From: Oryzias latipes
Lineage: Eukaryota; Chordata; Actinopteri; Beloniformes; Adrianichthyidae
Reading direction: 5' to 3'
NCBI RefSeq assembly: GCF_002234675.1
Contig: NC_019872.2
Location: 6,550,949 to 6,614,948 of the forward strand
Length of the DNA stretch: 64,000 nucleotides
A model generated the notes under the pieces. That model was not told the DNA's origin, searched no databases, and worked only from the letters and a program-made list of their open reading frames with translations. Position numbers and translations under genes: made by a program. Of the stretch, positions 5,767 through 55,511 are shown one piece after another (position 1 is the first letter of the stretch; each line of letters begins with the position of its first letter).

Positions 5767-8700
5767 ATGAAGAGCCCAGGAGCCGCAGAGGGCCGCCGGC
5801 TGGTCGGTCTCCTTGAGGAGGCTCTGGTCCGGGAGGCTCGCCTCTGGAAGGTACCAGTCTTCAGGAATGGATCCATTCAGGTGAGACTGCAATTGTGCAT
5901 TCCTGTTCAGGTGGTGGCATCAAAACGCTACGGCTTCAAAAATACATTAGCAAAAAATGAAAGGCTTTTAAAATCCCACTCCAATAATCTTTGGATCTGC
6001 TGTAAAAGGGCTCCCGGTGGTCTTTAAACTATGATGATGCCCTTTTTAGGCTAAATCTATAAACCTGTGTCATTTTCTAGAACATAGTTTTTGCAGAGCA
6101 GAACTAGCTCATTAGAAATTTGCCTCTGAAAGCCTGCCCCTATTTCCCATCATCCTTCTGTTTACACGCTCTACCGCTAGCCTACAGCCCCTCACAACCC
6201 CTAACTTAACATTAGTGATGCAATTAAAGTGCTGAGCAATATTGGAGCTATCCAGCCGTACAGTTCTGAGCCAGATGTCAGGTCAGACAGGGAAAACAAA
6301 GACGTACACGGATCTGTTTGTCTTCAACTGGATGCATCAGAATGGAGTGGCGCAGAGAACTAAGATTTTATGTCACAGCTACAATTTTTTTAACTGCATT
6401 TTTGTTTGTTGGTTCCTGTTTCACAACAGTTAAAATTTAGAAAATGCTCAAAAATTCCATTTTAAGCTTAACTCTCTTTAAAAAAGTCCTCCATCGTTCA
6501 GAAAAATGCTAAAAGAACATGTTAAAAACGCCAAAAACAGACCTATTAATAGAGTAGGTCTTCAAGGACAAACTGTAGCAAGTTTGATCAAGTGCATGAT
6601 GACTCTTTTGGACTGAAGGTGCCCATAAGAACAGGATCAAATCTCATATTGACTTTAAAATAAACACAACTTTTCAAACAAGTGATGTAGTCTGTGTCTT
6701 AACCTCTCAGGGGGCAGACATCTCCTTTTCCCAACATCAGCAGATGATCCTTTGGCTTGGAGAAATTAGCAGACTCTTCCAGTTCTGCCCTGAGACTTTT
6801 GCCTTGGGAGTGTGCATCCTCAACCGACTGCTGTCCGCCGTCAAGGTAAGCTGGCCACAAATATATTGGATTTTCTCTGTTCACTTTACTTTAGAAAAAA
6901 AAAAAACAACTAAACTTTTCGATTTCCAAAGGCTCAGCCCAAATACCTGAAATGTATTGCTTTCACCTCGCTGGTCCTGGCTGCCAAGATAAACGAAGAA
7001 GATGAGGTAACATCAAACTTGCCAAATAGCTGAAACAGCACTTAACAAAAGGACAGCTCATTTATGTTTTTTTCCAAAACAAAAGCTTTATTTTCTTCTT
7101 CTTTTTTTTAATGTTACAGGTCATCGGTTCAGTAAAAGATCTGGTTGAACGGAGCGGATGCAACTTTTCAACCGCAGAGATTTTGCGCATGGAAAGGATC
7201 ATTCTGGACAAGCTGCACTGGGACTTGTACACAGCAACACCAGTCGACTTCATTCACATTGTAAGTCAAGAACCAGCAGGTTTAAAAAAAAAAAAAAAAA
7301 AAAAAAAAGCAGAACAGCAGCTAGTATATTTGTTAATTTTTTCTTCTTTCTTTAACAGCACACATAAGCAACTCGAAGAGTTGTAGTTATAGTTCAGGTT
7401 GTTCTGCATAAAAACACAAGCGGTACAAAAAGCACAAATATAAACCACCACATCCGATTACAGGCTGTGTTTATCAATCATCAGACATTTCCTTTCCCTC
7501 TCAAAAAAAGACTTAATCCAATAATAGTTTTGGTCATTTAGATGATTCGACTCTGTACCCATCATACTAACCATTGCAATCAAGCATCAACTTAAATGTA
7601 AAATCAAATGATTTAACACGTTTATTAGATTTTTCATCTAAAATATGGTTTAATCTTTGTAATTAATTATATTTTTACCTGTTAAAAGCAAATTACTTGG
7701 TAATTTTCCCCCCAGTTTTGCAAAAAAGTAAAAAAAGCTTAATAACAGTAAAGCCTTCTGCATCACATTTTAGATAATCTAATTATGTTGAGGAATAACT
7801 TGCTGGTAGCAGCGTCTCAAATGTTTTTTCTTGTTGTGATAAATTTTCTTCTGGCACTAAATCATGCGAAGTACAACATCCTAAAGCCAAATCCAGCAAA
7901 CAAACCCATGATTTTTGCAAGCAACACAAGGTCTTCTGTGTGAATGTTTAATGAAATTACTATTTCTGGAAACTTTATTTGGGGCTGTGGAAGATTAGAT
8001 ATTTTCATTCTAATTTAGGCTCAAATCGGTACACGGGAGAAGCACATGAAGTCCTACAGAGACTGGATTTGTGAGCCAGCATGCATGGAATCGTGCATGT
8101 GTGTTAGGCCAAGGCACTTCTGATTGCTGTCCTGCAGCCACTGAGATGGTGCTTTGATGAAAAATGTCATTTATGTTGTCAAATTTCAAAAGCCCTTCGA
8201 TATTTTTCAATTTTACACCTTAATTTACTGCCAAATGTTTATATCTTTAAAAAATTTGTTTTCATTCCTGACGTAAAAAGCAAAACAAAACAAAAAGAAA
8301 ACTTTAAATTTATCAGTGAAATCAGAATTTGTGATTAGATGTCATTTTTATGTTGTTGATTAGAAAAACATAAAACCTATCATAAAAATAAAAATGTAAA
8401 ACCAAAAAACTTAAAGACCTGCCTTGGATTTTAGCCACAGAAGTGTAAGGATTTTTCTTTTGTTCATTCTTTTATTGTTCTCAGACATCACTTTCAGATT
8501 TACAAAATCCACAACTTTGAAAATAAAGACAATGTAAAAATAAAAACATACCAAAATAAATACATTTTCTCTTTCTATACTGTTCAAATAAATATATTTC
8601 AAAAACATTACAGTTTTAATTTAAATATCTCCCAATACCACTCCCTCCTTTTCCCCTGAATAAATGAATTTGCATTTCCTGGTAATATGACATAAAATGC

Positions 8701-11250
8701 TTTTCTGTCTACGGAACAGCACAAAGTCTCCACCATGACACCTATGAGTATACAAGGGGATTTACAGATCCACAGCCTTAACCTTGCAATGTTCCCCTGA
8801 ATCTGAGTTCAAGCTCTGGGAGGCACAATCAGCTAGATGAGAGGCCGAAGTGCAGTTTGCTACATGACCCGGTGGTCAGGTGGGGTCAGAAAGAGGACTT
8901 TTTTTATTTATTTCTTTAAACTATATAATGCTGATGCACCTCCCTCTGCAGTTTAACTTTCTTTTAACCCCATGGCTTATTTAACCTTTTGGTAAACAAA
9001 AGCACACAGATCAAAATAATTTTGAATGAGTGAAAAAAAAACTGAGAAATTTAACTTTACAAAAAAAAAAGGAAGAAAACTTTATAATTGTGTTTATGAA
9101 GCCAGTTTATGATTCTACGTCAAATTTTTACTGCAGGCCAAAAACAGGCTTTCTGCTCCATCTCAGCTTTTATTGTATTGTAACTTAGCTTCACTAGTAG
9201 GCTACAATACAATACAGCCAGCATGCTAACTGCTTTTATTGACGTTTAAAGTGTGCAAAATATTTTACAAAATAGAGAAATGGAGCCAGTTTCCTGGTTG
9301 AATGTTTAAAATATTTGTCTTTCTTTGGCAATCTTAACAAAGAATCAATTTGGTGACCAAAAAACTTGTATTTGCCACATTATTAGTATTTGCATGCTAT
9401 GTCAGCTCCAGCTACAACAACAAAATCATACTGCCACCTTGTGTTGGTCATTGAAATTACAGAGTGGTTTAAATGTCATCAGTGGAAAAGGGTTTGTCTG
9501 TAGAGACTATCTTGAACCCTTTTACACCGGAGATGTCGCCGGCAACACCTAAATAACAAACGCTCTGACACACCCTAACTCTTCCACCATTAACGCGATC
9601 ACTGTAAATCAGCTGATTCTGATGTGTAAAAAGGCGACTTTTTATATCGATATGTAACACGGTTGGCGTCGAATCATAAACTGAACTAAAGCTAGAGGCA
9701 GCTTTAGTCTGAACCCATCAGGTTTGCCGTAGTCGATACAAAGAGTTCTTTTTTATGTTTTCCTCTTTTGACCAGAGAACAAACATTATTTTGTACATTG
9801 AAGCCCAACAAAGATTGAGTTTGATATATAGTGCCCAAAAAGGAACACGGAAACGCACTGTACGAATACAATACAAAACAAGTTCACCATGAAAACAAGA
9901 GCTTCATTCCTTAAATTTGACTGTCAAACGGACTGATATGAATGGTACAGTTGTCAAGACGAAAGGTTGATGGGAAAACTGATGGGACGGAAAAATGACA
10001 AATGACATCATCATGCTAACATTTTGGTCTCGTTTCTCTAGTTCCACGCCCTGCTCGTCTCCGGCCACCCCCATCTCATTCCATCCATCGGTCTCAGCCC
10101 CGTTGTTGATTCCTCTCCAGACCCTGCAGCCCTAAACTGTGGATCAGGGCATCAGAAAATGCCTCCAGGCCTCCAGGTGGCGCTGTGGACCAGGCAGGTG
10201 CAACACTGTATGGCCTGCCACCAGCTTTGGCAGTTCAAAGGTTCCACGTTGGCCTTGGCCATCATCACTTTGGAACTAGAGGCACTCACACCAGACTGGT
10301 TCTCGGTCTTCACTGATCTGCTGAAGAAAGCACAAGTAAGGGTCTGCCGCCGCTTATTTTTGATTTTGAAATAACAAAATCTAGCTATAGGGCTGGTTCT
10401 GGATGAATGCCCTATAGCAGGGGGGGGTGTCAAACTCCAGCCCTTAAGGGCTGGCCTCCTGCTGGTTTTCCAGAACTCCTGTCTTATCTGCTGCTGATGA
10501 CCTGGATCAGCTGTGTTTAGCCAACCATGAGCTTCAATGGCAGGTTGGTTGGAAAACATGTTGGACACCAGGCCCTCAAGGCCAGGATCTTGACACCCCT
10601 GCCCTATAGTTTGTATTTCGGAAACAAGAGTGGAATTTTACAGAAATCATGTCACTTTTGTTTCACAGAGTTCACTTTTTTATGAGAAAATGCTTTGGAA
10701 TCTACGGTATATAAAGAAGTCCTAGTAAGGCACATACTGGTATTTTGAAATGTTAAGATGTTTTCCAGGTAAAAGAGGGGCAAACATTCAACCTTTCATT
10801 GACTTGACAGTGAAAACACCGGCAAAAAACTGAAGCCTGTGTGTATCTTGGTTTGTTTCTAAACCTTTGAATCTAGACGGATGCCTTCATCTCCGCATCT
10901 GCTTCTTCTAGGTGGACAGTGCCGAGTTTATCCACTGTAAAGAGATGGTGGACGAGTACCTACACAGCCTGGACTTTTCCCTGCCGACCAACGCCGTTTA
11001 CATTTTTGACGGCGCCCATATCCGAGAGCAGCATCAGCAGCGAGCCTGGAGGCCCTCGCGGCGCCTCCGCATGGCCAGGAGAGGGCGTGGTGGCAGCCAG
11101 CAGGGAGACTTGGATGAATATTATGACGGTTTGAGGCGCTTGTACAATGAAGAGACAAATCCAGAGGAAGACGGCGACAACGTCAAGGCTTTGTTTGCAC
11201 CCCAAAAGGCCGTCTCCCCTTGCCCGCCATTGCACCCTGCTGTCAACTAG
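5767..11250 (+). CDS. ccni2: Cyclin I family protein (ccni2), six coding exons, 365 aa
   Basis: Coding exons are 5767-5880, 6711-6845, 6932-7006, 7120-7260, 10042-10335 and 10912-11250. All junctions are GT-AG and the first five exons all end in phase 0, so joining them needs no frame adjustment. The protein starts [20 protein letters not shown] and matches cyclin I (CCNI starts MKFPGPLENQRL, from memory). The N-terminal cyclin box spans about residues 40-155, with [36 protein letters not shown] and [20 protein letters not shown]. The second cyclin fold follows in exon 5 ([19 protein letters not shown]). The C-terminus keeps two family signatures, [12 protein letters not shown] and SPCPPLHP. 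Cyclin I proteins are non-classical cyclins expressed in post-mitotic tissue; CCNI is linked to CDK5 activation, which is inferred here and not visible. Neighbours (septin8, sowaha, shroom1) indicate the CCNI2 ohnolog rather than CCNI. Exon 5 overlaps a septin8 coding exon on the other strand. Start codon choice: family match at the N-terminus. Confidence 0.93.
5965..6530 (+). repeat. Dispersed repeat family, copy B, in ccni2 intron 1
   Basis: It shares with the other copies CCCACTCCAATAATCTTTG, CATAGTTTTTGCAGAGCAG, TTTGCCTCTGA, TAGCCTACAGCCCCTCACAA, the peptide [10 protein letters not shown] and LDASEWSGA, and the 3' block GTCCTCCATC...AGAACATGTTAAAAACGCC. It starts only about 85 bases after the ccni2 exon 1 donor. 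Confidence 0.75.
7261..10041. other. ccni2 intron 4 (2.8 kb)
   Basis: The donor is CACATT|gtaagt and the acceptor tttctctag|. It holds a 24-base A-run (7283 onward) and AT-rich unique-looking DNA. It is probably also transcribed antisense as the 3' UTR of the septin8 long isoform. No further gene is seen. Confidence 0.6.
9235..9240 (-). terminator. septin8: Candidate septin8 long-isoform poly(A) signal inside ccni2 intron 4
   Basis: This is the first minus-strand AATAAA I found downstream of the long-isoform stop at 10152. Its use would give a 3' UTR of about 0.9 kb running antisense through ccni2 exon 5 and intron 4 (7261-10041). It is a positional inference only. Confidence 0.3.
10042..10335 (+). 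CDS. ccni2: ccni2 coding exon 5 (second cyclin fold), overlapped antisense by septin8
   Basis: The acceptor is tttctctag|TTCCAC and the donor GCACAA|gtaagg. The exon encodes residues 156-253, from [13 protein letters not shown] to FTDLLKKAQ. The stretch [20 protein letters not shown] is nearly the cyclin I family consensus (human CCNI has LLHCMACNQLLQFRGS, from memory), so this frame is under real protein constraint. Bases 10152-10320 also encode septin8 on the minus strand. Confidence 0.93.
10152..10320 (-). CDS. septin8: Septin 8 long-isoform alternative last exon (cysteine-cluster tail)
   Basis: Joining the donor after 16437 to the acceptor ctttcttcag|C at 10320 completes codon AAC. The protein then reads ...[24 protein letters not shown], continues [17 protein letters not shown] and [21 protein letters not shown], and stops at 10154-10152. 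The human SEPT8 long isoform (from memory) reads KDKDKKN-RSDIGAHQPGMSLSSSK, then VMMTKASVEPLNCSSWW and PAIQCCSCLVRDATWREG, so length and register align residue for residue. This tail, with its CC-x-C cluster, is known as a palmitoylated, filopodia-inducing motif in mammalian neurons. The resulting isoform is 475 aa. The exon lies wholly inside ccni2 exon 5 on the other strand. Use in this fish is inferred from conservation and intact splice sites. Confidence 0.88.
10418..10601. mobile_element. hAT-type MITE in ccni2 intron 5
   Basis: A 184-bp element starts CAGGGG...GTGTCAAACTCCAG and ends CTTGACACCCCTG, so its ends are inverted copies of CAGGGGTGTCAA. It is flanked by a perfect 8-bp direct repeat, CCCTATAG (10410-10417 and 10602-10609), the length typical of hAT target duplications. 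The left terminus carries an extended G-run. It lies in the 576-base last intron of ccni2. Confidence 0.85.
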
Positions 11251-12204
11251 CCAGACATTTTCGCACACCGTCCGTGTCTATCACCTGTGCACAGCTGGAA
11301 GCCCAGTTTACAACAAGCTCTCCAGGGTCAAATGAATCGTTTTGACCCTTTCTATGCAGTCGTCCAAAGCCACTGAATGTAGAAAGGGGGGGCAATAAAG
11401 AAGACACGAGGTGACGGCACAGCAGCTGAGGAGAAACTAGAGAAGTTACTGAGGGAGACTGGATGAAGATCTGAATGTTTTGTGGTTTTTCTGAGTGATT
11501 TTTTTTTTCTCCCTCCTTTTTTTATATTTCAGAGTTCAGTTACTGTGAGGCATCTTGGTGCGCAGGTTCTTCCTCGGCCACAAAGCACTTTGAGATAAAA
11601 GCAAGCTTTTTTTTTTTCATTTTATATATATGTATTTTACATTTTTTTTACTTTTTTAAACCTTGTTCATACTAAACGTATTTACAAAAGTGACTTATTA
11701 CTTAAAAGCTTTATTTTCATGACTAATGCAAACGTGTTTTTTCTTTTATTACATGCTTCTGCATGTCTTGTTTTGTGATTTATCGATTAAATGGAAGCAC
11801 CTTTGGGAGATTAGTTCAACACTAGAGGAAATTTTAAAAAAATTGCGATGAGACATCTGGATTAATGATGTTTTGTTTTATTTTTCACAAATAATGTATA
11901 AATTTTAAGTTTGGCGTGAAGGCTTCTTGTCTTTCTTTAGTAAAAATCACTTTCACCTTTAATAAGGTGATGGCAAAAAGTACAACTGGAGCATTGATGA
12001 GCTCAAAGTGGGTCCAGAAGGGCCAAGGCTGAACATTTAAACCCCCAAGACATTGAACTGTGTTAGCAATAATGTCTAATGTGAAAACATTTCTTTTTTT
12101 CAGTCTTTGCTCCTTATTCTGCAGTTACTGGCCTGTTTTCCTTTTTTTCCAAGTACTAAGGCAGCTGTATTGTACTGTTATTATTGTAAACACACAGAAA
12201 TAAA
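11251..12204 (+). other. ccni2: ccni2 3' untranslated region with poly(A) signals
   Basis: Downstream of the TAG stop the sequence is AT-rich with T-runs. Two canonical AATAAA hexamers are visible, at 11394-11399 and 12199-12204, giving UTRs of roughly 160 or 970 bases. Nothing else coding is seen. Confidence 0.55.
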
Positions 12205-14568
12205 GCTACGACTTGAAAGTCTAAAGTTTCACCGTCTTTGAATAAAAAAAGTCAAGATCAATGTTAGAGAAAACAATTCAGACAAAGAAATCGGCAAAAA
12301 GTTTGAATGTAAAAAAAAGAAAGTTGGAATCAATGTTAAAGAAAAAAAAATCAATGTTAAAACTGTCTGAAAAGGTCATAACCAATGTTGAAGGGAAAGT
12401 AAATGAAAATACTCAGAAAAATCATTTAACAAAAGAAAAAGTGATTTACAAAGTCAGGAAAAGGTAAATTTTTAAAAACATTAGGTCAGAAAACGACATC
12501 AGAAATCATTTAAAAAGTAATTTAAAGTAAAAAAAAAAGTCATGTTAAAGATAAATAATAAAAATATAAAAAGTCAATTTGTGTAGAAAGAAATTATCAA
12601 TTTTAAGACTTTCATTTGAACTCAGATTTGTTGTTTAGAGTCTTAAAGGTTATAGCAAACTGTTAGGGTTATACAAGTGTTGTCTCAGACCTAAATTAAT
12701 GTTTTGTTTAATATAAATGTAAACTGTCAGGAGCAGCTGAACGTGTCTCTTTTCAGTCTCCAGCACATCTTTTAGGAAAACAACTGGGTTTGCAGTCCTG
12801 ATGTGTTCATTGCACAAAGTGACCAATGAAATGTATCTGGAGACCTTTAACAGCAGCGTAGGGCTACAGCAGCTGCTGTCAGGGAGCGATTATCGCTGGG
12901 ATCTGTTAGCACACCGAGTTAAAGACAGAACTGAGCGCTCTGAACATCCTGTGCTGCTGGACTGAATCCAGGGTGCCCTGCAGGTGGTGGACAGAATAAT
13001 AATAGGGCTTTGACACAGAAAACACTTAGAAAGGAAGAGCACTTTTACAGTGCTGCCTCCTCCTCTTGATGAAAAAGAAATCCTACTCTGGGACAGCAGA
13101 GAACTTCACTGTCCCTCTAAAGTATTTAAAGCCTAAAGATGATCTGAACTCAATTCTGTCCTAGGAGGAAAGGACAGTTTCTAGAAGTTGTTTTTACCGA
13201 AAATCAGTTTGAATTCAAAACTTTTACAAGCAAAATTCAACAACAAAAAAATAAATCGTTCGGCTGTATAATAACGTCGAATAAAAATGAAACGTTCAGA
13301 TTCAAACAGACCCAGGCTGTGGCGGCTCCATCACCACGTTTGTGCCGAAAAGCGGGTCGGTTTCAGCAGGGCTCTGTGGACAAACTTCCCCACCGTCTTT
13401 CTATCCAAGAGCATTTGAGGTTTGTGGTTCCTTTCAAAATAACTGCAAACCCAAGATGTGCTGACAAGTTATTTTTAAAAAGGTGGTTTCTCCTGACAAC
13501 TATTGTAAACAAAGCTCCAGTCCTGGTTTTACTGTTCAACATTCTCGCCTGGTTTACGGCGGAGATTCTAGCCGAGTTTTTAGGGCTTTCTTAACCTTGG
13601 GGTGAACCTGCTGGTACTTTCACTCCTGGGAAGACTGTCCTAGAAACATTTACCTCTCTAACTCAGAACAGATGTTTTCCCTCCTCAACCTTTTTTTTTT
13701 TTTTTTTAGCACATACAGAACTTTTTGTCCTCCAAGTATTTCCGCACACATTCTTATGTTCTAAATTTTCGTTTAAAAAGTACATTTGAATACTTCGATT
13801 TGTTAACTTTTTCTTTTAACTTAATTTTAAAAGCTTACCTGGTTCTAATGGCATATTTTTTTAAGCTGGACTGCATAGGTTTTCACAATCATCTACAGTT
13901 TTCTGCTTGACTGCAAAAAGCTACAATCATAACATTTGTGTTAACACACTTACTGAGCAAGTCTCTCACCCACACGCTTCCTTTTCTCATGAACAAAGTC
14001 AGCAAATGTACTTTTCTGATGCTCGTTGACAGAGCTCGCCTTCTGCAAGCCGCTGCACACCAACCTGAACTGATACCCCCCCAAAAAAAAAGCTCTCTGG
14101 TTTGGGGGAAATGCTTCAACAGGAAACGAGCATCTCAAGCTGACAGGTGTTTGCTCTCCAGACTAACTGCATCCCAGCGGGTCTTCACCTGCCACAGCAA
14201 TTCCCGCCCTCTAGGAGTAAATGCACACAAACTGCAGAGAGACGCAGCAAAATCAGGAAGTGCGGGGTGCGTGGGGGCAGATTTATTTCCAGCTACAGAC
14301 AGTAAATACAGCTGCACTCTTATCAAAGTCTGGGGTTAACTTTTACAGCAACAGGAGGCTTAAATGTTTTGTGGCGTCCACATGAGTGTGACCTTTAACC
14401 TCAACACAATGCCCATGTTTAGATCATGTACAACACCTTCTTACAACAACATGCTTTTATTAACTAGTACATTTTGCATATAAAACTTGGTCAACTCTAG
14501 AAAAACTTCACGTAAAATTTAGGACTCACAGCACCAGAACATTGCATAGATTTGAAGGACTACCTGTG

Positions 14569-14611
14569 GAGTACCTGTATAAATGCAATCGATGCATTTA
14601 TACAGGTACTC
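14569..14611. repeat. Near-perfect 43-bp palindrome
   Basis: The arms GAGTACCTGTATAAATGCA (14569-14587) and TGCATTTATACAGGTACTC (14593-14611) are exact inverted copies around a 5-base centre. It can form a tight hairpin in DNA or RNA. It may be the relic of a small foldback element. Confidence 0.85.
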
Positions 14612-15349
14612 ACTTATTGCTAATCAAAGATGCCGGGGTTTGTTTTACTACGCTAAATCTTTTATGTTATAAAATTGTTAACAGACACAACACACCTGAG
14701 AGATTTTCAAAACTGGTTTTACAGTCGAAACAATGATACCTATAAAATGCCTCAAATGCATCGTCCAGGTGTGTCTACGATGTGGTAGCAAGTCAAAATG
14801 TCTGTGAGCTTTTAATGCGTCGTCTACGTGTGAATAGATTAGGGTGAAACACATAAATTGACAAAGAAAAAAACAGTACAATCACCAGGTAAAAAAAAAA
14901 AAATGCATATATAGTAAAGATATAAAAGTGTCCAAAACAACATAGAAAGATCCTGAATGAATGAGATGGTCACGGATGGATTGTTTCTCAGCTCTCACCA
15001 CTCCGTTTTCTCCCGTGGCTTCACCACCATCATCATCATCCTCAGTGTCTTTGGTCCGTGTGTCAAGATGGAATGTCAAAAAATAAAAGAAAGAAGCCAC
15101 AAAAAAAAATTTAGACAGATGTAGTCGTTGTTATGGTGATGGAGAACAAATCCATGGTCATGTGTGGATGGGTGTACAGCAGCCATAAATTAACTGAAAA
15201 AAAATGAAACATAAAAATGAACAAATGAAGTACTTGTCTATTTAAATGATAAATTGTGTTTTATAATCCTAAAGGTGTGAGAAAGGACAGAAGCCTGGAA
15301 TGCTGTTAGTAAAAATAAAACTAATGCTTTAGCTTTTGCGTCAGCTCCT

Positions 15350-15355
15350 TTTATT
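15350..15355 (-). terminator. septin8: Candidate septin8 short-isoform poly(A) signal
   Basis: The first AATAAA I found on the minus strand downstream of the short-isoform stop is here (TTTATT on +), implying a 3' UTR of roughly 1.1 kb. Further hexamers occur at 14456-14461 and 14282-14287. Which is used cannot be read from sequence. Confidence 0.35.
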
Positions 15356-16432
15356 ATTATACATTTGATCCAGAATAAATAATAATATATATAAAAAAAC
15401 AAAAACAATTTAAGCCTCAAACTCACAAAATGGAAGATTGTTTCTTAGCAGCAGTGTGACTGAGCAGCCACAAGGTGGCGCCACATGTCTACTCGTTAAC
15501 CTGTAAAGTCTAAAACCACACATCATACTAACCAGCTCAACTATGAATCAGAGTCCATGAGAAGCACTAGTAGATCACCAAAAACCTGCACATATCTTGT
15601 TGGTGCCTCAAAAAACACTTTAGAAATGACTCCAAATATTCACAAGCTGCACAAAATAACAATAACCAAACAAAAACCTTCATTCCACGGGTCAGAATGT
15701 CTGTTAATGGCTGATGTGACATGGAGACAGGAATGAATGGGGACGGGTTCCTCCAGAATCATGTTGAAACCAGATGAGTCAAAAAGCTCCCGTTTCATTT
15801 CCGCCCAGCCTTAGACCGGCTGCGCGGAAACACATTTTTAAGAGTGAAGTCTCGACTGCACGCCAAGGCTGATGCGTGCAGGTCTGACAGATCCTTTTCA
15901 CCAACAATATTACCGGTTTGCTCTGCTTGGGCAACAAGGATAACCCATTCACTATGACAGCAAGCAGCTGGACTTACTGCAGATAAGAACTACAAAAGTT
16001 ACAACCCACTAAAAAAAAAAATAACTATCATGTAAAGTAAACCCATTTGTTCTGTCCTCTTGAGGCGAGTCCTTCATCACCCTCAGAAAACAAACTCCCT
16101 GCCTCCTCCCCAAATATCCAGAGGGAAATTTAAAGGAAAGAGTGAAGGCGCAGGAAATGTTAAGCTTGGGCAGAGCAAAGAGTCAGGAAGTCTCCTTCAC
16201 GCATGCCAGACTCTTATTAAAGCTGAAATATGTGTGTATCAGAGAAAGTTTACAACAGTAAGCACACTCCTTGAAGGCTTGGCTTGTTGTGGACAAAGCC
16301 GACTTCTTGCCAGTAAATAATCAACCAAACCAGAGGGCCAAAAGCAGCAAAAAGGGTTATTTATAAGCAAAGAGACAGATTGAGAAAAAGCAGTGATCTG
16401 TTCTGAAAAAGAATGAGAGAGGTGAAGTGCTC

Positions 16433-16437
16433 TTACT
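16433..16437 (-). promoter_or_regulatory. septin8: septin8 alternative splice donor that contains the short-isoform stop
   Basis: On the minus strand the exon 9 end reads GACAAGAAAAA|GTAAGAG. If the donor is used, the last two bases AA pair with the C of the exon at 10320. If it is not used, the reading frame goes AAG TAA, so the stop codon is made from the TAA of the donor itself. The same five bases therefore decide between KKK-stop and KKN-RSV. The donor consensus is strong. Confidence 0.85.
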
Positions 16438-19400
16438 TTTTCTTGTCTTTGTCTTTCTTGAGAGGCTGAGATAAGGACTGAGTCTCAGCGGCCATCTTTC
16501 TCCTGTTGAAAGTATTCAGCTCCTCCTCCAGGTCTCGCCGCTTCTCCTCCACTTTCCTCTTCTCCTCTTGATGTATCCGCTTCAGATGCTCAAATTTATC
16601 ATGCAACTGTGCAGATAAGGGCAGACAGAACAGTGGCAGAGGGGAAAGCTAATTATTATAAATGAACACACGAGTATTTTAGTTTTTAAAGCCTCAGAAA
16701 CCCTCATGTCAAAACGTTTTAGAGATACTTCTTCAGAAAAATGAAAATATTTGTTGAAATTGGAAATGTATTCAGATTTAGATTGGATGTCCAAAGCAAT
16801 AAAAAGATACATATATATTTTATACTTTATGCTTTTTACAGCTTGTTTTTTTGTCTCTTACATGCACCACCTAGCGTACAAAAACTCTAATCAAAAGTCA
16901 CAGAATCTGCCAGCAGAGCGACGGATCAAAGGTGTTTTTGCGTAACCTGCATTATCCAGACTTATAGAATTGTTTTTCTCCACAGAGCTACAGCCTAAGC
17001 AAAGGTATGTTTTTCATTTTCCTTTCTTATGTCCCCCAACGAAGAAGATGAGAAAAGGAAAATCTTTCACATTGTAGAGCAGATATGAGTGAATTTTGTT
17101 ACAGCTGGAACACAACCCAGCAGCTGCACACAAAATTCTGCTTCCACAAATGATGACATTTCCTAAACATGAGCAGCTAAGCTGTTGCAGTGCTGATCGG
17201 ACGTACAACTACAGTATATCAAAGTAGAAAACGATAAAGTAATGGCAGGACAAACAGACCTCTTTCTCCTTTTCTTTAAGTTCTGCTTCAGTTTCTTTCA
17301 CTTTGTTCACAAACATTTGTCGCATCTCTTCTTCTTTGCGCTGCAGGTCGCCTAAGAACTCTTTCCTCTTGGCCTCATAGGTCTCTTGAAGGCTGTGAGA
17401 AGACAGAGAGGATTACGTGAAAATGGACAGAAAAGGTCCGGCTTAGCGGGTTTCTCTGCTATGCCTGCTTTTTTTATTTTTTACCTGATTGGTTGACTGT
17501 CAGGATCTGTGTCTTTGAAGCCCATCTCCTCCAGCTTACAGCGGCGGTACAGCTCATAGTGGCGTGCGTGGGTCTGCTCCCTCAGATCCTCCATGTTGAC
17601 TCGGATCAGCATCTCTCTGAGTTTTACAAAATCACAGTGGCTCTCGTTCTCAACTGAAACAAGACAAAAACATCAAAGTTAACACAAAAGGACAAATCAG
17701 ACAGTCCAGATTTTCTGTTTAATGACAGTCAGCGTGTCAGCCGCTAATGTGCAGATGTGCCTCATCGAAAGACATCTTCTTTAGTGGTACTGTACATTTC
17801 ATTTTTAGATATTTAAAGCATGAAACACGTATTTAACAAAAAATTATTTGGAAAGTCTGAATGCATTTCCAGCACCAATGATTCAACTGCTGCAATGACT
17901 TTTAGCAACAACAACAAAGGTTTAGATTTCATGTTTAATAAAGAAAAACAGTGAATATTTGGTAGTTTACAAAATGCTACTCTGCATGTCACATATTTAA
18001 GAAAGACCTAGTCTCAACCCAAGTATTTGAACCCTGGAGCACTATTGCACTTTCACCCGAGCAAAAATATTTTCATGTATTTCAATGTCGGAGTCTGTGC
18101 CTTCAGAGAATTCCCACATGTCCCAGGAATGGCTGGACCAAAGACCAGGTTTCTAGTATCATTTTATTATTTTTTAGGAATTTTTTGTTCTCAAATTTCT
18201 AATTTTTCAGTAATTTATGAACATGTTTTTAGGAACTTTCTATGTTTTTCTTTCTCATTTTGTTACACATCCCACAGTTAAAAAGTGGAAAAGAAAACCA
18301 CTATAATTTATCATGTGTTGTCATGTTTTGATCTATTTTTTGATGACAAATACTTTTTGTTGGGTATAATATTTTGGGTAAAAATTACCCGGCGAAAATG
18401 ATGGTGTAATTTTTTAAACCGAAAGTGTTATAGGGTTAAAGGAAACGTGTTGTTTTATTGTTTTAGGAAACAAGTTAGCAAATGTTGCAAAGTTTATCCT
18501 GTAAAGCTCTTCATAGAACCTCACTGGACCTAAAGATCATGCACTGACTGAAAGGAAGCCGTTTCTGACGCCGCCATGAATCTCAATTTGGCTGAGAGAT
18601 GGCTAAAAGGATGCATGCTGCTGAGTTTAAATGCCAGCACAAGCTGCAAGCTTTGAGAAAAACAAAACAACAGTGACACAGCAAAGCTTAAAGGTGCTTT
18701 GAAACACTAAACCTCTCCACATGATGGGACATATCCATACTGCCGAGGTCACCGTTAAAACACAAACTAAAAGCAAAGAAAATTGCAGTTTTCTGGGAAA
18801 ATATCCAGGTTCCTCCAACTGTAGCAGCCCCCCCGTTGAGTCCAGAATGAAGGCCAGTTTCCTGACTGATGCAGCATTGAGCCCTCAAAATGCCTGAGCA
18901 ACACAAGCGTGTGTGTCTGGTGACTGGATGACAGAAACACTCAGATGAGGAAACAGAAAAGTAAACAGCTACCTGACCTCAAAGCACATGATACACAAGC
19001 TAAATAGATAACTTTCTGTTCATCAGATCTGCAAGCACAAAGGGCAACCAAACTGTCTTTGGTGCAGCAGCCATTGCACGCCTCAATTCTTTAAAAAAAA
19101 AAAAAATGCTGCTTTATGAAGAGACGTGACAAGTGCAGCGCTGCCGACCTCAGCGGCAGAGAGCAGTTTTCAGTTTTTGTTCGTCTCTGTTTGCCATAAA
19201 AACTAATGTGTGGTCAAAGAGATGCTCGGGGTCTCAGAGATGATGAGGAAAGATAAGCACACACCCACTGAGGCCCTTTTCTAACAACTCTCTTTGTCAG
19301 GAAACAGTCAATCCTCTGTTTTCCCCTGGAGGGGAATGAAACTTTCCCATGGCTCTTTGAGAGGCTACAATAACCCTTCTAAATAACATCTGCCATGGAC

Positions 19401-28400: not shown

Positions 28401-31400
28401 ATTGATAGCTTATTGATTGTAAATAAAACGTTTCAGTAATAATTAATGCACATTACAATGTAATACTCATTGGTTGCAATTAAAAGAGCTTTGATTATTT
28501 CACCACAATCAAGTTCACACATGTATCTGGAATTATTCAAACACCTGTTGATCCTTAAATCCTTTTATCTTCATAACCTGAAATCAGAGTGTCTTTATAC
28601 ATTTTCTTGAATATTTGAATATTTGCACATTTCTTGAGCTCATTACTTAAACCGTTCCAAAGTTTAGTGCCACACACGGACACACAGACACACAGTTCTT
28701 TGTGGTTCTTATCAATTTGATCTTGAAGTTCCTACATCCCCTCAGTTTGTTGCCTGCTTCATTTTCTAAGAACTGTTATTGGATATTGAATGGTAACGAT
28801 TTCCCACTGGCTCTGTATAAAAGTTGCGCAGTGTAAAAATCCACAAGGTCATACAGTTTTAAAAGTCTAGATTGATAAAATAGATTGTTTGTATGATCAA
28901 GATATCCGGCTTTATGTACAATTCTGACGGCTCGTTTTTGAAGTAAAAAGAGAGGATGTAGTGAGGTCTTATAATTATTCCCCCAAATTTCTATACAGTA
29001 AGTGAAATATGGTAGTATTAAAGAACAGTACAATAAATATCTACTGTTGTATTCTAATGTATGTTTAGATTTATTTACAATTGAAATACTTTTTGAGACT
29101 TTAGTTTGCACATGTCTGATGTGTGGCTTCCAACTTAGTTTGTCATCGATTAAAACCCCTAAGAATTTGATTTCTGTAACACTTTCGATTAAGACATTAT
29201 TTATTGCAATTGAGAACTCTTTATTTACGTTGTAGTTACCAAAAAACATCACTTTGGTTTTATCTAGGTTCAAAGATAATTTATTCCATCCATAATTCCA
29301 TCCATAATTTTATTTTGTTTAACTCTGTGTTTACCACATTGATAATTTCCCTATGATTATCTGTACAATAGAATATGTTTGTGTCATCAGCAAATAATAT
29401 GAGTTTCATAAGCTTTGAAACATTGAATATATCATTTATGTAAATATTGAATAGTAGCGGGCCCAGGATTGATCCTTGTGGGACACCACAACTTATCTCT
29501 TTGGTTTCTGATGTATATTCATCAATCTTGACAAATTGTTTTCTTCCCGTTAAATAGCTTCTGACCCAAGTTAGCGCTAGTCCTCTTATCCCATACACTT
29601 CCAGTTTGTCAAGTAGGATGTCACGATTGAGATTGTCAAATGCTTTTTCTGAGTCAATGAAAATTCCAGCTGCATATTTCTTTTTGTCCAGAGCGTTTGT
29701 GATTTCCTCCACAGCATCAACGATAGCCAATGAAGTTGATTTGTTTTATCTTAAACCATATTGGTTTTCATTTATAATGTTATATTTATCAATAAATGTA
29801 ACCAATTCATCATTGAATATTTTTTCTAAAATTTGAGAATTGTGGAAGAAGAGAGACAGGTCTATAGTTTGTAAATTGGTGTTTGTCTCCACTCTTATAG
29901 ATAGGAATCACTTTTGCAATTTTCATTCTGTTTGGGAATCTCCCAGTTTGTAATGATAAGTTACATATGTACGCTAAAGGGTTACAGATACTATTAATTA
30001 CCTTTTTCACCACCTTCATATCTATATCCTCACTATCTTTTGAGTTTTTACTCTTGAATTTATTTACGATTGATATCAGCTCATTTTCCTTCACATCAGA
30101 GAGAAATATTGACTTTGGGATCCTTTCGATGGGAGGATCATTGTCTTTGCTGGTTGTGCATTTTGGAATTTATTGAGACCATTTGCTGCTTCATTGATGT
30201 TAAAGCTTTGACCCTTCTCATATGTAAAGTACTCTGGATATGTTTGCTTTTTTGTCCCATTTTTAATGGTGTTTTTAATATTTCCCAAACGCGCTTTACG
30301 TTGTTTTATTTTCATTCAGTAGATTATTAAAGCACACTTTTTTACAGTGCCGTGTTATTTTGTTTAGTTTATTTTTATATGACTTCTATCTTTGTTCAGT
30401 TTTTTTTAGGTTTGAGTCTTGAGTTTCTCTTTGGTTATAAATATTTAGGGTTTTCTGTACACTTTATTATATTAACCCTGACTTGCAAATGTAGAAGTAA
30501 AAAGGAGACTTCTTCCTCATTGCTTCAACATCTTGTCAGATGTTTTGTTTCAAAATGACTCAACCTGGAACTTTTGGATTCACTGAAGTTACTTCCTCTA
30601 CACAGGATGAACAAGAAGATTTATTTAAACAAATAAAGACAAATAAAAGCATGTTTTTATGCATGAAAGTCAAAAAGAACATTGTTTCTCAAACTATCCA
30701 GAGTGTTTCAAAGTGGGTCCTCTACCTTCACATCCATCTTCAGTCTTCTCTGAGGAATGTTAACGCTCGGACCTTCAGAAAGCCCTTGGTGCGTGAGGAT
30801 TGTTACCTTTAGCTTTTGTTTGTCCGGTATACTTCCTTCGGTTCAAGTCATGTTCTCTATTCCGGTTCTCTCAGTTACAGTCTCACCTGGGTTCTTTTGC
30901 TTATCATCCACATCTGTCCTCAGTTAATTATCCCACAGTATATTTAAGGCTGTGGTTTCCAGTTCGGGCACTCTTTTTGTTTCTATCTGGTTCAAGTTTC
31001 ATCATGTTGATGTTTAGTTGCTTTTTTGTCTTGTCTTGTAAAAGTTTATGAATTCAACTTTTAGCTTCTTGCTTTAAGCCGAATCTCCTGCATTCGGTGT
31101 CCACCTCCACCATTCCTGACATAGTGTGCATTTACAACCCACTGGAGGATCTGTCCTTCGGAGTATTGGTTTAAAACGCTTAGAGACAGTTGCCATCAAA
31201 GGGCGTGAGAGTGCAGTTAGTTGGCCTCTGCACAAGCAAGCTTCATTCCACGGTTGAATGTTTAAAAATAAATTAAATAAAACAACTTCCTCTTTTTTTT
31301 CTCTCAGCTCCCCCCACATTTATCCAAAAGAGACAAAAAAAAATAGCAAAACTTTGGAATGATAGTTGTTCTCACGACAGACAAGACTGTACAGACTGAG

Positions 31401-40540: not shown

Positions 40541-41746
40541 GGTGCGGAATGTGTGTGAGGTGTGTTTAGGCAGCAGACTGGGCAGGGGCGTTAGGGAGCA
40601 GCCCTCGTCTCTCCGTACTAGCCTGCTAAACTAACTGAGGCGCGCTGCTGCTGACAGAGATGGAAGAGAGGGACAAGCGACGGAGCAGGGAGCGCGCAGC
40701 CTTTAACGGCAAGATGATTCCCTTACTGCCCTCATAGTCCTCGCCCGAATCCATTATATCCAACGTTTATTAGGTTTAACTCCACATGTAGTTCATCGAA
40801 AGCACAAAATATTAGTCAATTTTTATTTTTCAATTAAAATATAATGTATTCTCAAGCAGAATAATGTATCTTTTCGCCTGTTTGTATCGACTGGTAACAA
40901 CCGGTGGGAAACGTAAGTGTGCGCATGCGTACCAATTGCGGCCGTTCGCTCATTTCACAACGGGTTTTCTTCGTTTAATTATGATTATAATAATCACCCT
41001 TAGTAATTAACTGACCAAAATAATTTATTTTAAAGTTTCAAACAGCCCCTAAGCTTCTCATACAAGATTACAAAGAAAATTACATGTTTGAGAGTAACGC
41101 TCGAACTATCTTGAGCTCATTTTTACTCTTTGCTACCTGCGGATTCGTTCCAATATGGCCACTGTTTTTTTTCCCAATCAGGTGGACAAAAAAAAAAAAA
41201 AAAAAGGTGGACAATCTGTCACGTGACATTTTCCCCTTTGTGAAAGTAAAACTACTCGTTATTTTGTTTTAATTTGTATATTTAGTTGGTTTCGATTTAG
41301 ATAATTTCGCATTTTTATTGAGTAAAATAATTTTATTGGGAGTTCTTTTCAAAGGTGGTCATTTTAGGGGCCAAACAATCAGTTTTTAATCAGTGCAAGC
41401 AGCAGTTTTGTATTATAAAAGTGAACAAAATAAGTATAAACTCGAATTTTTAGTAATAAATAACATAATACATATTATTTTGCTGATTTGATGTAAATTA
41501 ATTTAAAAACATTTTTTCTCCAGAGAGACATAATGTTTTTTAATGGGAGCATGTAAATAACATAAATAAATTCTTTCTTTTAATTATTTTTAGACAAATG
41601 TGTTAATGATTTTCAACCTGTCCACGTCTGCGCATTCCCCGGAAAGATACTCCCTCAGGTAATGAAGGAGTGTGTCGAGGTGAAGGCGTCTTCTATCACC
41701 TGAACAAAGGTAACTGCGCGTCAGAGGGCTGTTCAGCGGATTTATC
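40541..41746. promoter_or_regulatory. septin8 promoter/5' UTR side and septin8-sowaha spacer
   Basis: The first 180 bases upstream of the septin8 ATG are comparatively GC-rich with CpGs and no TATA box, consistent with a housekeeping-type septin8 promoter. The rest is AT-rich and holds a 17-base A-run near 41190. The two genes diverge head to head about 1.2 kb apart. No further gene is visible. Confidence 0.4.
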
Positions 41747-43156
41747 ATGGAACTGACGCAGAAAGCAGTCCTCTCTTTTCTCTTAGAGGAAGGGGGTAAA
41801 GTGATCAAATCCAGCCTGGTGGCCAAGTTCAAGGATTCTCTGACCTGCGTGGATCCCGCGGGGACAGAGCGGAACAGACAGCTTTTCAGGACTTTTGTGA
41901 ACAACGTTGCCTTCGTCAAAGAAATCGACGGTGCCCGGTTTGTTGTCTTGAAGGAAACGTACCAACATTTGCTCAGGGGGGTTAAAAATGAGGAAAGCCT
42001 TGAGGAGAACGCAGAGACCAAAGGAATTCCCCAGACAGGAGAGCAGGAGTGCACGGTTGCGCACGACGAGAAGCGTGAGGAAGACTCCGTGGGTGCTGGG
42101 GAGACGCGTCAGGCAGAGCCACCCGCTTCCAAGGCCGATGAAGGAGGAGAAGAGAGTGAAAGACATGAAAACCCCTCACCGTTACGCTCTCCAATAGAGC
42201 TGGCACTGCAGAGAAGCAAGTCTAAAGATATTAAAATGATCAAGAGGATGCTGAATTTTGACGCACCCAAGGACACGGAGAGGAAGATCAGGGCAGAACC
42301 GGGCCCAAATGAGCTGGCCACCATGAAGGGCAAACGTTACGGCTTACCTCTGAGAACACCACCCACCAGGGTGGAGGTCCATCAATTGAAGGTGGAACCA
42401 AATGAAGAAGATGTCGGGACAAAGAGGATGCTGTCTTCGGATGGGACCGGCTCCCCACAGCTGAGGAAGGCATCGAGGAGCACCAAGGCATCCGAGGAGC
42501 ACAGAGACACAAAGATTTCCATGGTTCCTCTGGAGAACACGGAGCACAAATGGATGGTGAAGTGCGCTGCCGGGCACTGGAGCCAGGCCTATGGCCTGCT
42601 GCTCAATGACTGCCAGCTGGCTGAGAAGAGGGACTTCATGTCGGGGTTCACTGCTCTGCACTGGGCTGCCAAGTTTGGGAACACAGAGATGCTTGTAAAA
42701 ATCATTGATGTGTCCAAGAAAGGAGGCGTTGACATCGATGTCAACGCAAAAACCCACGGGGGCTACACTCCTTTGCACATAGCTGCTCTGCATGATCAGG
42801 AGCACATCATGGTCATGCTGGTTGGGGAGCTTGGGGCCGATGTGAACATAAGGGACAACAGCGGGAGGAAGGCCCTCCACTATCTGCACAAAGGCATCTG
42901 TAGAAGTGTGAGGGAGATGCTGGGAGAGCCCAGATTTAAGCCACCTCAGGGTCGAGTCTGTCCAGAGAAAGAGGATCCAGACCTGTTTCCGGATCTCTCC
43001 AAGAGTCTGCACTCAATAGGTCGCCTCTTCCAACCCACTGCAGTGGCTCAGAAGAGGAAGCACAAGCAGAGGTCTGGATTCTACTCCCTGAGTGACAACA
43101 CTATCGAGGAGAAAGATGAAAACAGCTTCAGACAAAGATCTGACACTTTTGTGTGA
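41747..43156 (+). CDS. sowaha: SOWAHA-type ankyrin repeat protein, single exon, 469 aa
   Basis: One intact open frame begins at ATG 41747 (MELTQKAVLSFLLEEGGKV). Residues 1-75 form the sosondowah N-terminal domain (RNRQLFRTFVNNVAFVKEID, then GARFVVLK). A charged, low-complexity middle follows, about residues 80-265. The C-terminal part begins VPLENTEHKWMVKCAAGHW, followed by ankyrin repeats at about 296-385 (DFMSGFTALHWAAKFGNTEM; HGGYTPLHIAALHDQEHIMV). KRDFMSGFTALHWAAK is the SOWAHA version; SOWAHB has HKDFLTGYTALHWIAK (from memory). Human SOWAHA is also intronless in its coding region and about 549 aa. The molecular role is unknown; ankyrin repeats suggest protein binding. Possible poly(A) hexamers lie at 43506-43511 (ATTAAA) and 43645-43650 (AATAAA). 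Confidence 0.93.
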   Translation: MELTQKAVLSFLLEEGGKVIKSSLVAKFKDSLTCVDPAGTERNRQLFRTFVNNVAFVKEIDGARFVVLKETYQHLLRGVKNEESLEENAETKGIPQTGEQECTVAHDEKREEDSVGAGETRQAEPPASKADEGGEESERHENPSPLRSPIELALQRSKSKDIKMIKRMLNFDAPKDTERKIRAEPGPNELATMKGKRYGLPLRTPPTRVEVHQLKVEPNEEDVGTKRMLSSDGTGSPQLRKASRSTKASEEHRDTKISMVPLENTEHKWMVKCAAGHWSQAYGLLLNDCQLAEKRDFMSGFTALHWAAKFGNTEMLVKIIDVSKKGGVDIDVNAKTHGGYTPLHIAALHDQEHIMVMLVGELGADVNIRDNSGRKALHYLHKGICRSVREMLGEPRFKPPQGRVCPEKEDPDLFPDLSKSLHSIGRLFQPTAVAQKRKHKQRSGFYSLSDNTIEEKDENSFRQRSDTFV

Positions 43157-47956: not shown

Positions 47957-50900
47957 TCACGGCTTCAGGCGGCTAGAAAGGGCCTCCAGCTGCTCCTCGC
48001 CCAGCCTCTGCTTCTCCTCCAAGTCCTTCAGGCGGATCAGAAGCGAAGCCTTGGTCTGCACAAAGCGTCTGTAGTCCTGCACCTGCTCCTCCGACAGCTG
48101 CCGGGACAGGAAGGTGGAGACCAGGTTCTCTCTGCGGTCCAAGTTATCCTTCAGGTCTTTGGCGTCATCCCTCTGTTTGCACAGCAGACGGTGGCGACTG
48201 TCCAGACATTCCTGCATACAAAAAAATCATTTCATTGGATATATTTGAACATTTATATTTCTTCTAGTCTTAAATAAAACTGCTATGAGAGTAAAAATCA
48301 TTTCAGGAGATGCTTTTGCTTGAATTGAAAGTGACATTGTTTTTGATGAAGGAGAAAGTTTTACAGGACAGTCGGTGTAGTGTGGCCTTAAGTCAACAGA
48401 GGGCAGGGTAGAAACAAATGTCATCGAAACTGGGCAGGAGTTTCGGTGAGTCAGTGTAAATACCAGTGTTGCCGATAACAGCAGGAAAGCAAATGAGCCT
48501 CTAACAAGCCCTCAGTAAGCAGCACCCTCAGCCGTCACGTGTCTGCCCATGGACACACCAACAAAGAGCTCTTTCAGGAATAAATCTGCAGGTCTTATGG
48601 ACATTAAATAAAAACCAACGAAACCCCACGTTTCAGCACATCATCCAGGGACACCCGTCACTTTTTGGCAAAGCTTGTTGTGGTTATTGAGACTGAATTC
48701 CAAAAACGCATGATCGTTCCAGTGAGCCAGCTCATTTAGGAACAGCAGTTTATCAAGCCTTATCTGCAAATGCCAGCTAAACTATTTGATCCAAACAGAG
48801 ATAAGCTAAAAACAATTGGCAATTAAATTCCAATAAAGCCTGCAGCATGAAAACCACAGAGTGAGAAACCTTGACTCCAATTCAGCTGTCCTTTAACTTT
48901 CCCCAAGCGTTGTGTTTGAAGTATTAAATCGAACACTGACGCTGGGAAAGGGAGTCATCTGTTACCCAGTACCTCCAAATGAGCTGCTTGAAGTGATGAG
49001 TAAGGTTGCATGACAAAGCGTTACCCTACAGGCAGCAGCTGACAGTACGCTTTTTCCTTGCGTGTCTTTGTGTGTGTAAACAGCAGCTGTACACAGGAGG
49101 GAACAAAAGGCTGGCCTTCTAACCTGTCTAAGTTTGACTAGATTGAAGTGTTTACATAAACTGCATTGATAGAGAAAATAATTGTTGCATACCTGTGTAT
49201 ATAATGCAGATCTAGAAAACATGTAAAACGTTTTTTTTTTTTTAAAGGAAAATAAGTTTTTATAGGTCAAATAAGACGTTTCCTCACCTTTTCTTCTGCA
49301 TCGGTGTTCTCATCCACGTTGCTCAGGGCGTTCTGCACTCGAGCCAGGCGGGCTGAGAGACACAGCAGCAGGTTCATCACCCTCTCCAGGTCTCCTATGA
49401 AGAGGTTATACCTCTCCTGCTCCACTGGCTGACAGCGCTCCTGCACCAGCACCTCCAGCACCTTCCCGCGCGCCGCGTTCTCCTGGACCTCCATCTGCAG
49501 GGCGCAGCGGCGCTCCTCCAGTGAGCGCAGGTGCGCCTCGATGTAGGAGACCAGCAGATGCTGCGAGCAGAGCCCAGACCAAAAAAAACAAGTCAAGAAG
49601 GCATTTCAAACTGGAGGGGAAACAGATACACTTCAAGGTGAGAGACTGCAGAGCAGCAAAGAGGAAGAAGCCCAAGCTCTACTAGCTTACCCAGACAGAC
49701 AAGTGGGAGACACTGATAAGAAGCAGACAGTAAATCAGATGATGGGATGCAGAAAACAGCTAAAAATGGGTCAACTTAAGGCCAAACAGAATCCAGATGT
49801 CATTTATATACAGAAAAAGGAGCTCAAATAATCTAGATGTAGCTGTTTTTCCAAGTTTCTTTTTGGCATATTGACTAAGTAAAAGTATGAAGGGATCTCT
49901 ATCCCTTTAATGAAGTTTTTACAGATAATTCATGACAAATAATCCCTATTAATTATGTGGAAATAACATTGTCTAATGGGTCATCAAACTAATACTTACC
50001 TTCATTTCAGAGATTTTATCTTTACATAGCACGTCTGCAGGCCGAGATTCCTGAATGTCAGACGCAGAATCGAAAGCAGACTTTTCAGGTCCTTCAACCA
50101 TTACAGCGCTGCAAAAACAAACCCGCATGTGTCAATAAAGCCTTGATGATTCATGCAATCATTTCTGCCACCACAATACAGTTATGCTACGGAGACATTT
50201 ACGCCAGCTCTTTTTAAATGTACTCAGATACAGGAGGAAAATAAAGAATCCATGAAAACAAAAAACTGTAATTTGGATTTCCAAATTTGCAAAGTGGTGT
50301 CGATTTACAAGACGCTAAGAAAATGAGGATTTTATTTTACTTGGCTCTGAAAATATTTAAACAGCATCTACATATTTATAAATTAAGCATATTGTCACCT
50401 ATAGAAGTGACAAGTAAAGCACTGAGACAGTGGATCAACATGATTTGACGTGTTCTATTTTTAGACCACGTTTTATTATTTGACATTTCTTTTGTTTGTT
50501 CGCTCCACCACATTAGCATTCACCTTTCTGCAGTTCCCCTCTGCTCCTGCTTCCTCTTGTAGTGCTCCTCCATCAGCAGCGTGTCCTCTGACATCACCTG
50601 CTCCATAAGCATCAGGGCCGTCTTCCGATTGGCCAGAGGGAAGAGCACCCTGGCTAATGACTGGTCAGCTTTGACCACTGCCTCCACAAGCTCCTCCCAC
50701 TGAGGTTTCTCATTGGGGTTTTCTACAGTCTCTCCCTCTGGTGTTCCCCTTTCCTCCGTCTTCTCTCCCACCGCCTTAGCTTCCATCCCCGGAAGCTTCT
50801 GCTCCTCCGCCTCCTGGTCGAGGTCGGCATCAGAGACAGGTGTGCAGACAGGCACAAAGGCTTCACTCGTCTGCTTCATGAGGTCTGAGCTGGGGAACTC

Positions 50901-55323: not shown

Positions 55324-55511
55324 GAAGGAACGGGGCAAATGTCAGGAAGGGAAGGGTACGGTTTCTGGATGTGGTAGGTGAGTACGCAGGCCAACGCATG
55401 TGCGCTTTGTGAGCAAAACTGATGAAGATGCCACCAGCACATTTGCCTGTCCCACTTGCCACTGATTAGGTCATTTTCCTGGCTCTTCCAGAGCTTCTTG
55501 AACACGTTTAT

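Follow-up and report, generated by a model that had tools for sequence, protein, structure and literature searches.

The 64,000-nucleotide stretch of medaka (Oryzias latipes) DNA analysed here, hereafter the window (contig NC_019872.2, positions 6,550,949 to 6,614,948 of the forward strand), contains two convergent genes, ccni2 on the plus strand and septin8 on the minus strand, whose coding sequences meet in a single exon. Coding exon 5 of ccni2 (10042-10335, +) and the terminal coding exon of the long septin8 isoform (10320-10152, -) have 169 bp in common, with the septin8 exon lying wholly within the ccni2 exon; alternative use of such a last exon is known from mouse only. As read from the DNA, the same bases are open as coding sequence for both genes and are accompanied by splice signals. 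Taken with protein comparisons between species, the arrangement very probably represents an antisense dual-coding exon, specifying a cyclin segment on one strand and a septin tail on the other, across ray-finned fishes and tetrapods. The locus has the following features, in window positions.

10042..10335, plus strand: ccni2 coding exon 5, in which a variable loop precedes the opening part of the second cyclin repeat (99% match to Oryzias latipes protein P0019)
10336..10341, plus strand: ccni2 exon 5 donor GTAAGG, a splice signal read from the sequence
10152..10320, minus strand: last coding exon of septin8, equivalent to mouse exon 10b; it opens with the third base of a split Asn codon and continues with 55 codons and the stop TGA at 10154-10152
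10200..10205, minus strand: codons for the two neighbouring Cys of IQCCTCLV, which correspond to the pair palmitoylated in mouse SEPT8-X1 (CC at 468-469 in rodent protein P0017)
10321..10342, minus strand: septin8 3' splice site (CAG) and pyrimidine tract, CCCTTACTTGTGCTTTCTTCAG, opposite the ccni2 LeuLysLys codons and exon 5 donor
10321..16436, minus strand: septin8 intron that would be removed from transcripts with the long tail, holding ccni2 exon 6 and presumably the ccni2 3' end; its splicing is putative, judged from annotated relatives
10912..11250, plus strand: ccni2 last coding exon (exon 6), with the stop codon, inside that septin8 intron
16437..16606, minus strand: septin8 penultimate coding exon, a coiled coil ending in KKDKDKK; its donor GTAAG begins at 16436
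7261..10041, minus strand: ccni2 intron 4, the presumed site of the long septin8 3' untranslated region, with poly(A)-like signals at 9235, 9169, 8907, 8903, 8471 and others
5767-5880, 6711-6845, 6932-7006 and 7120-7260, plus strand: ccni2 coding exons 1-4, with a Cyclin_N match in the near-identical P0019
17260..40540, minus strand: upstream septin8 exons, with a Septin Pfam match in the relative P0002

The plus-strand exon is bordered by ag/TTC at its start and CAA/gtaagg at its end and runs through 98 codons without a stop. These borders, the open frame and the match to P0019 bear out the initial annotation, which had read 10042-10335 as a coding exon of ccni2. The gene is identified by its Cyclin_N domain and by orthology to proteins annotated as cyclin-I2, its relatives being variously named cyclin-I, cyclin-I-like and cyclin-I2. 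On the minus strand, the tail reading frame begins at 10319: septin8 exon 9 ends in AAG AAA AA at 16437, and the tail exon supplies the C at 10320 that completes a split Asn codon. Frame 1 from base 10320 is the wrong septin frame, because this base is the third of the Asn codon. The same junction residues (KKDKDKKN-RSV) occur in annotated relatives such as P0002, septin-8-A isoform X1 of Pelmatolapia mariae, which the terminal exon matches at 93% over the tail region. The septin8 product comprises a Septin GTPase domain (Pfam Septin in relatives P0002 and P0008), followed by a tail of the form SSSKVMM..WW.AIQCC.CLV with adjacent cysteines. Matched peptides of its upstream part begin at 40540, 31894, 31683, 27625, 22484, 21672, 17654 and 17394, positions that are not exact exon starts.

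The splice signals of the two genes are interleaved. Pyrimidines occupy 17 of the 20 nucleotides upstream of the septin8 acceptor AG, and the ccni2 donor GTAAGG lies 14 bases from this acceptor, so its complement forms part of the septin8 pyrimidine tract; a further part is supplied by the ccni2 Lys-Lys codons (AAGAAA), again as their complement. With an open frame, a CAG acceptor and the junction residues of relatives, the earlier assignment of 10152-10320 on the minus strand to the septin8 long-isoform tail, with splice signals of a working type, holds.

A codon-by-codon listing of the overlap places the cyclin and septin frames wobble base to wobble base, each septin codon being the complement of base 2 and then base 1 of a cyclin codon, followed by that of base 3 of the preceding cyclin codon. 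In this register, most amino-acid changes in one protein are felt by the other, and conservation of one drags the other along. The septin tail can be tuned, with the cyclin unchanged, through third bases and through the first base in Leu or Arg codons. Septin residues that depend on these bases are the ones able to reveal selection on the septin frame: Trp versus stop, Met versus Ile, Lys or Asn versus Arg or Ser, Glu versus Asp, and Cys versus Trp or stop.

A search in which the 56-residue tail was the scored region (416-471) returned 17 proteins, namely 14 septin gene products (six teleost, three from one caecilian, four bird and one rodent cluster) and three unnamed open reading frames (ORFs). 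The tail-bearing septins belong to a cichlid, two Sinocyclocheilus species, Alosa, Prochilodus, Coryphaenoides, the caecilian with its three isoforms, four birds and a rodent heading a cluster of 417 members; throughout, the mammalian side consists of this rodent-led tail cluster and of primate cyclins. Both products are thus recognisable in ray-finned fishes and in tetrapods, as had been proposed for vertebrates. Counted from R, the tail has 55 residues in medaka and the cichlid and 54 in the rodent, birds, caecilian, Alosa, Prochilodus and Sinocyclocheilus, so that the tetrapod length earlier ascribed to the medaka tail is nearly correct, off by one residue. In the three unnamed ORFs (P0003, P0004 and P0018), Trp stands at the position of the tail stop and the frame continues antisense over the rest of the exon, as if TGA were Trp; beyond the stop they resemble medaka antisense residues, an example of shadow conservation from the cyclin. 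In the models of P0008 (Prochilodus) and P0012 (Coryphaenoides), extra residues precede the tail or the coiled coil is duplicated, and automated annotation seems to struggle here.

The antisense fit between tails and cyclins was measured as the minimum number of conflicts with which one DNA stretch can encode a given tail and a given cyclin in the wobble-facing register, over 12 tails and 216 cyclins. The tails were that of medaka and 11 of the matches, with P0003, P0004 and P0018 (which read through the stop), P0010 and P0011 (whose tail is the same as that of P0009) and P0012 (shorter and joined differently) omitted. The cyclins came from the best 120 of 671 and the best 120 of 271 matching proteins; seven of 223 lacked the strict core pattern and were omitted, six of them aligning without Tyr in the overlap and the seventh, P0098, looking mispredicted. 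For eight tails (medaka, Pelmatolapia, Alosa, Prochilodus, Geotrypetes, Pardalotus, Oenanthe and Corvus), the minimum was zero over 54-55 positions; it was one for Sinocyclocheilus rhinocerous and Leiothrix, two for S. grahami and five for the rodent. The median conflict of a tail against all 216 cyclins was 10-15, and shuffled cyclins, tried for three pairs, gave a mean of 48-49 and a minimum of 40. For all 12 tails, the best partner came from the nearest group at hand (Geotrypetes was tied with a falcon, and the rodent partners were three primates and one unnamed sequence). The start of the Prochilodus tail, RSDKNENQSGMSLSNSK, can be coded together with the Prochilodus cyclin segment ERLMPDWFSFLSDL and not with the medaka cyclin, and the Prochilodus septin and cyclin carry consecutive locus numbers, their contigs having the same listed length.

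Antisense stops in other vertebrates, a possibility raised in the initial annotation, were sought at the protein level, and none of the 216 cyclins forces a stop over the first 44 tail codons. A composite cyclin derived from tetrapod tails, with ambiguous positions picked by hand, also served as a query. Among the best 120 matches, one sturgeon came first; CCNI2 from lizard, bird, turtle, coelacanth and caecilian stood next at 85-90%, and frogs, sharks, primates and teleosts ranked lower, such that tetrapod and coelacanth proteins outranked almost every ray-finned one. Since CCNI2 is retrievable from the shared cyclin core alone, the ranking is informative and the retrieval is not. A chance ORF was ruled out as a candidate by the antisense fit across clades.

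Selection on the septin frame was assessed by simulations that kept the cyclin residues and picked synonymous codons at random. Across lineages and codon models, the antisense frame stayed open with a simulated probability of 0.055-0.40. In this register, such an open frame in one genome is weak evidence; it is the comparative evidence that lifts the overlap above chance. Of the first 44 residues of the medaka tail, open draws already match about 27-33, so raw tail identity overstates the case; most of it is a geometric by-product of cyclin conservation. Of these 44 residues, the caecilian Geotrypetes shares 37 with medaka (simulated mean 29.5), the crow Corvus 34 (27.0), Pardalotus 35 (28.1) and Prochilodus 39 (30.1), each value reached in 0 of 10,000 draws, and Oenanthe shares 35 (28.1), reached in one of 10,000; the cyclins used for the caecilian, Pardalotus, Oenanthe, the crow and also Alosa were those of relatives, not of the same species. 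Doubling TTA/TTG use or making third bases AT-rich left at most one such draw for these five tails.

Residues invariant in five lineages numbered 28; the 20,000 simulated draws averaged 18.5 and never exceeded 24. Among medaka and 10 other tails, 25 residues are invariant (24 if P0006, omitted from these tables, is included, as it has Ser at position 27), and 14 of the 25 hinge on cyclin codon choice in medaka and/or crow. K17, K22 and N24 occur in all 11 tabulated tails, and each needs TTA or TTG for a cyclin Leu, codons that make up 21% of Leu codons elsewhere in ccni2 and septin8. Because the real tails exceed random synonymous draws, the septin frame is most likely under selection itself.

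Within CCNI2, no other long stretch is as well conserved as the overlap. Among 13 species from shark to primate, its mean pairwise identity is 0.77, and 0.85 in the core, versus 0.23-0.70 in other parts of the CCNI2 exons, with the six-residue exon end as an exception at 0.95. In 47 chosen CCNI2 proteins, 22 of the 29 invariant columns fall in residues 193-248. Tyr is found in the overlap in 0 of 216 cyclins, and many other CCNI2 segments contain it in most species. The cyclin fold could explain this conservation alone, so the conservation agrees with a double constraint without proving it. Helices are predicted at residues 197-218, 221-237 and 241-251, a modest assignment given a mean predicted local distance difference test (pLDDT) score of 61.8, with blocks of residues 191-250 averaging 47-73. 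Fold matches to the model are weak (best query template-modelling (TM) score 0.31-0.37), and all 50 listed are cyclins or cyclin complexes. Trp replaces a near-invariant cyclin Cys (QHWMACHQ) in a monitor lizard, P0200 (Varanus), and in two owls, P0201 (Athene) and P0212 (Strix), at a residue encoded at 10207-10209 in the window; by codon logic, a change there from TGT to TGG would alter the cyclin and keep the septin Gln and Ile.

Were the cyclin alone selected, the antisense frame could appear conserved as a ghost, its register copying the cyclin constraint. Random synonymous codons on the cyclins of other lineages do recover much of the medaka tail, as given above, the wobble-facing register is reported to yield a coding signal often and was excluded in that study (PMC6886504), and the resemblance of the three unnamed ORFs to medaka past the tail stop is of the same kind. 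However, observed identity exceeds the draws in all deep pairs except Alosa, more than half of the invariant residues (14 of 25) depend on codon choice, and the mouse tail has been expressed and tested (PMC6092797). As a sole cause, this account was ruled out by identity above the simulated draws, and we consider it highly improbable. It is unlikely that the exon is instead kept as RNA or DNA, with the wobble bases serving splice signals or a sense-antisense duplex, and such a constraint may also act beside dual coding. Both splice signals do fall within about 22 bp, the two mRNAs would have at least 169 complementary bases in common, and retention of wobble bases alone cannot separate the two readings on protein pairs; against this, palmitoylation is no longer detected once the two mouse tail cysteines are mutated, and dendritic rescue fails with the non-palmitoylated variants (PMC6092797), and tails vary where the cyclin varies. 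Separate capture of a tail antisense to ccni2 in fishes and in tetrapods would suit the scarcity of exon/exon overlaps common to human and fish (one with fugu and five with zebrafish; PMC2151771), but the tails share their register, a stop within one residue, the same first residues after the junction in most cases and the 25 residues invariant in 11 tails. This shared register and residues ruled the candidate out, and we give it almost no credence.

Several points also weigh against the dual-coding reading. The tails were ascertained by a tail search, so that species without a tail are invisible to it. The only same-species pair from outside the window is that of Prochilodus, the codons elsewhere being deduced from protein pairs. 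The rodent tail has its five conflicts, over 54 positions, with primate cyclins, no rodent cyclin having been identified in the set. The cyclin core HCMGFHQF of Chanos chanos P0121 would alter the septin tail, and Dissostichus P0098 has an unrelated stretch at the core, probably through a gene-model error. In the simulation, synonymous sites are taken to be saturated, and a single codon-usage model serves every lineage. The Alosa tail is weak, its 37 of 44 residues (mean 31.5) being reached in 54 of 10,000 draws, and in 53 of 10,000 and 25 of 6,000 under the altered codon models. Once the three Leu-dependent residues are excluded, 32-59 of 10,000 draws reach the observed values in the four tetrapods; the corresponding counts are 8 in Prochilodus and 977 in Alosa. 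Vertebrate DNA of the exon was sought with the exon 5 peptide in genome and viral contig collections, where 147 and 10 pattern matches, respectively, yielded no confirmed case.

The initial annotation had proposed that a dual-coding exon has been kept since before the fish-tetrapod split. This proposal is supported by both products in both groups, the antisense fit, the lineage-specific changes and the excess conservation of the septin frame. Judging from the protein pairs, the dual-coding exon would predate the split between ray-finned and lobe-finned fishes; birds and amphibians are indicated to carry it, and mammals probably do. Of the 25 invariant tail residues, 24 could be encoded opposite every one of the eight cyclins examined from sharks and rays; the tail matches themselves include no shark. 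It is possible, if doubtful, that the exon was dual-coding already in the jawed-vertebrate ancestor, that its products are alternative, with neurons making the palmitoylated septin silencing ccni2, and that shared codons and splice signals lock the pair together, leaving neither gene free to escape.

For a dual-coding exon, the sequence suggests the following arrangement. The two genes are convergent neighbours with interlocked 3' ends; the long septin8 transcript would run about 6 kb past its penultimate coding exon into ccni2 and splice to an exon antisense within ccni2 exon 5, such that the 16437-10320 junction would be used in medaka. In mouse, use of exon 10b means bypass of an earlier last exon, which was not located in the medaka window. 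One strand of the 169 bp would specify part of the second cyclin repeat, and the opposite strand a septin tail that can be palmitoylated and anchor the protein to membranes. This tail may have been born by overprinting on an older cyclin exon. Long septin8 would need head-on transcription through the 3' half of ccni2, and the genes therefore probably interfere, in a transcriptional conflict, in cells using both.

The function of the tail is documented in mouse. Read-through past the 10a poly(A) site, and with it the use of 10b, is promoted by NOVA bound nearby (PMC6092797). The 10b product, SEPT8-X1, is palmitoylated at C469/C470, and its palmitoylation is no longer detected when both cysteines are mutated; SEPT8-X1 partly restores dendritic arbors, non-palmitoylated variants fail to do so, and the tail is dendrite-promoting and filopodia-inducing (PMC6092797). 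By analogy, the medaka tail, with the same adjacent cysteines, would be palmitoylable. Among the 45 chains listed, no solved structure of the tail was found, the matched stretches stopping at or before residue 429 of 483.

Upstream of septin8 lie an ankyrin-repeat ORF (41717-43153, +) and Shroom ASD1/ASD2 domains (47963-55341, -), consistent with the SOWAHA-SHROOM1 neighbourhood of human SEPTIN8. Several long ORFs within a septin8 intron (28776-30169, -) give the impression, from their residues, of a broken reverse-transcriptase element; no Pfam family was found for 28779-29309. The paralogous pair CCNI and SEPT11 are presumably neighbours in human as well, and CCNI presumably has Tyr where CCNI2 has the His, a residue that would impose a stop on the antisense strand; none of the sequences analysed was identified as the CCNI paralogue.

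In published surveys, most gene overlaps are not conserved over long evolutionary distances, and coding/coding overlaps are selected against (PMC2330155). The ccni2/septin8 overlap would be at least as old as the ray-finned/lobe-finned split, and it encodes a motif with measured effects in mouse neurons. A whole-genome coding-signal survey excluded the wobble-facing register (PMC6886504), so that other old overlaps of this kind may be more numerous than counted. In human, genome browsers may well show the overlap, and if the human locus is as expected, 'synonymous' variants in CCNI2 exon 5 could alter or truncate SEPTIN8, and the reverse. Supplements aside, neither SEPT8 nor CCNI2 occurs in the overlapping-gene surveys PMC2330155 and PMC6746723, nor do SEPT8 and 'cyclin' in PMC2151771. 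The open-licence papers naming CCNI2 with SEPT8 or SEPTIN8 are, by title or the start of the abstract, association or DNA-methylation studies, with none on the overlap.

Among known systems, mouse Sept8 exon 10b and its product SEPT8-X1 share the adjacent cysteines and the use of an alternative last exon (PMC6092797); the main text of that paper contains neither Ccni2 nor antisense and leaves the overlap untreated. POU5F1 and TCF19 are likewise convergent, human genes with shared exons, but only one ORF enters the shared part, which is reported to be non-conserved (PMC8493703). The TR-alpha2 (THRA)/Rev-erb-alpha (NR1D1) pair is also alike, with convergent genes and an alternative last exon that runs through 67 antisense codons of the partner (PMC3047299). 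The ccni2/septin8 overlap lies in the wobble-facing register, and its septin tail has a palmitoylation motif. The pairs differ in span, since the THRA/NR1D1 overlap is concluded to be unique to eutherian mammals (PMC3047299), whereas that of ccni2 and septin8 very probably extends across ray-finned fishes and tetrapods.

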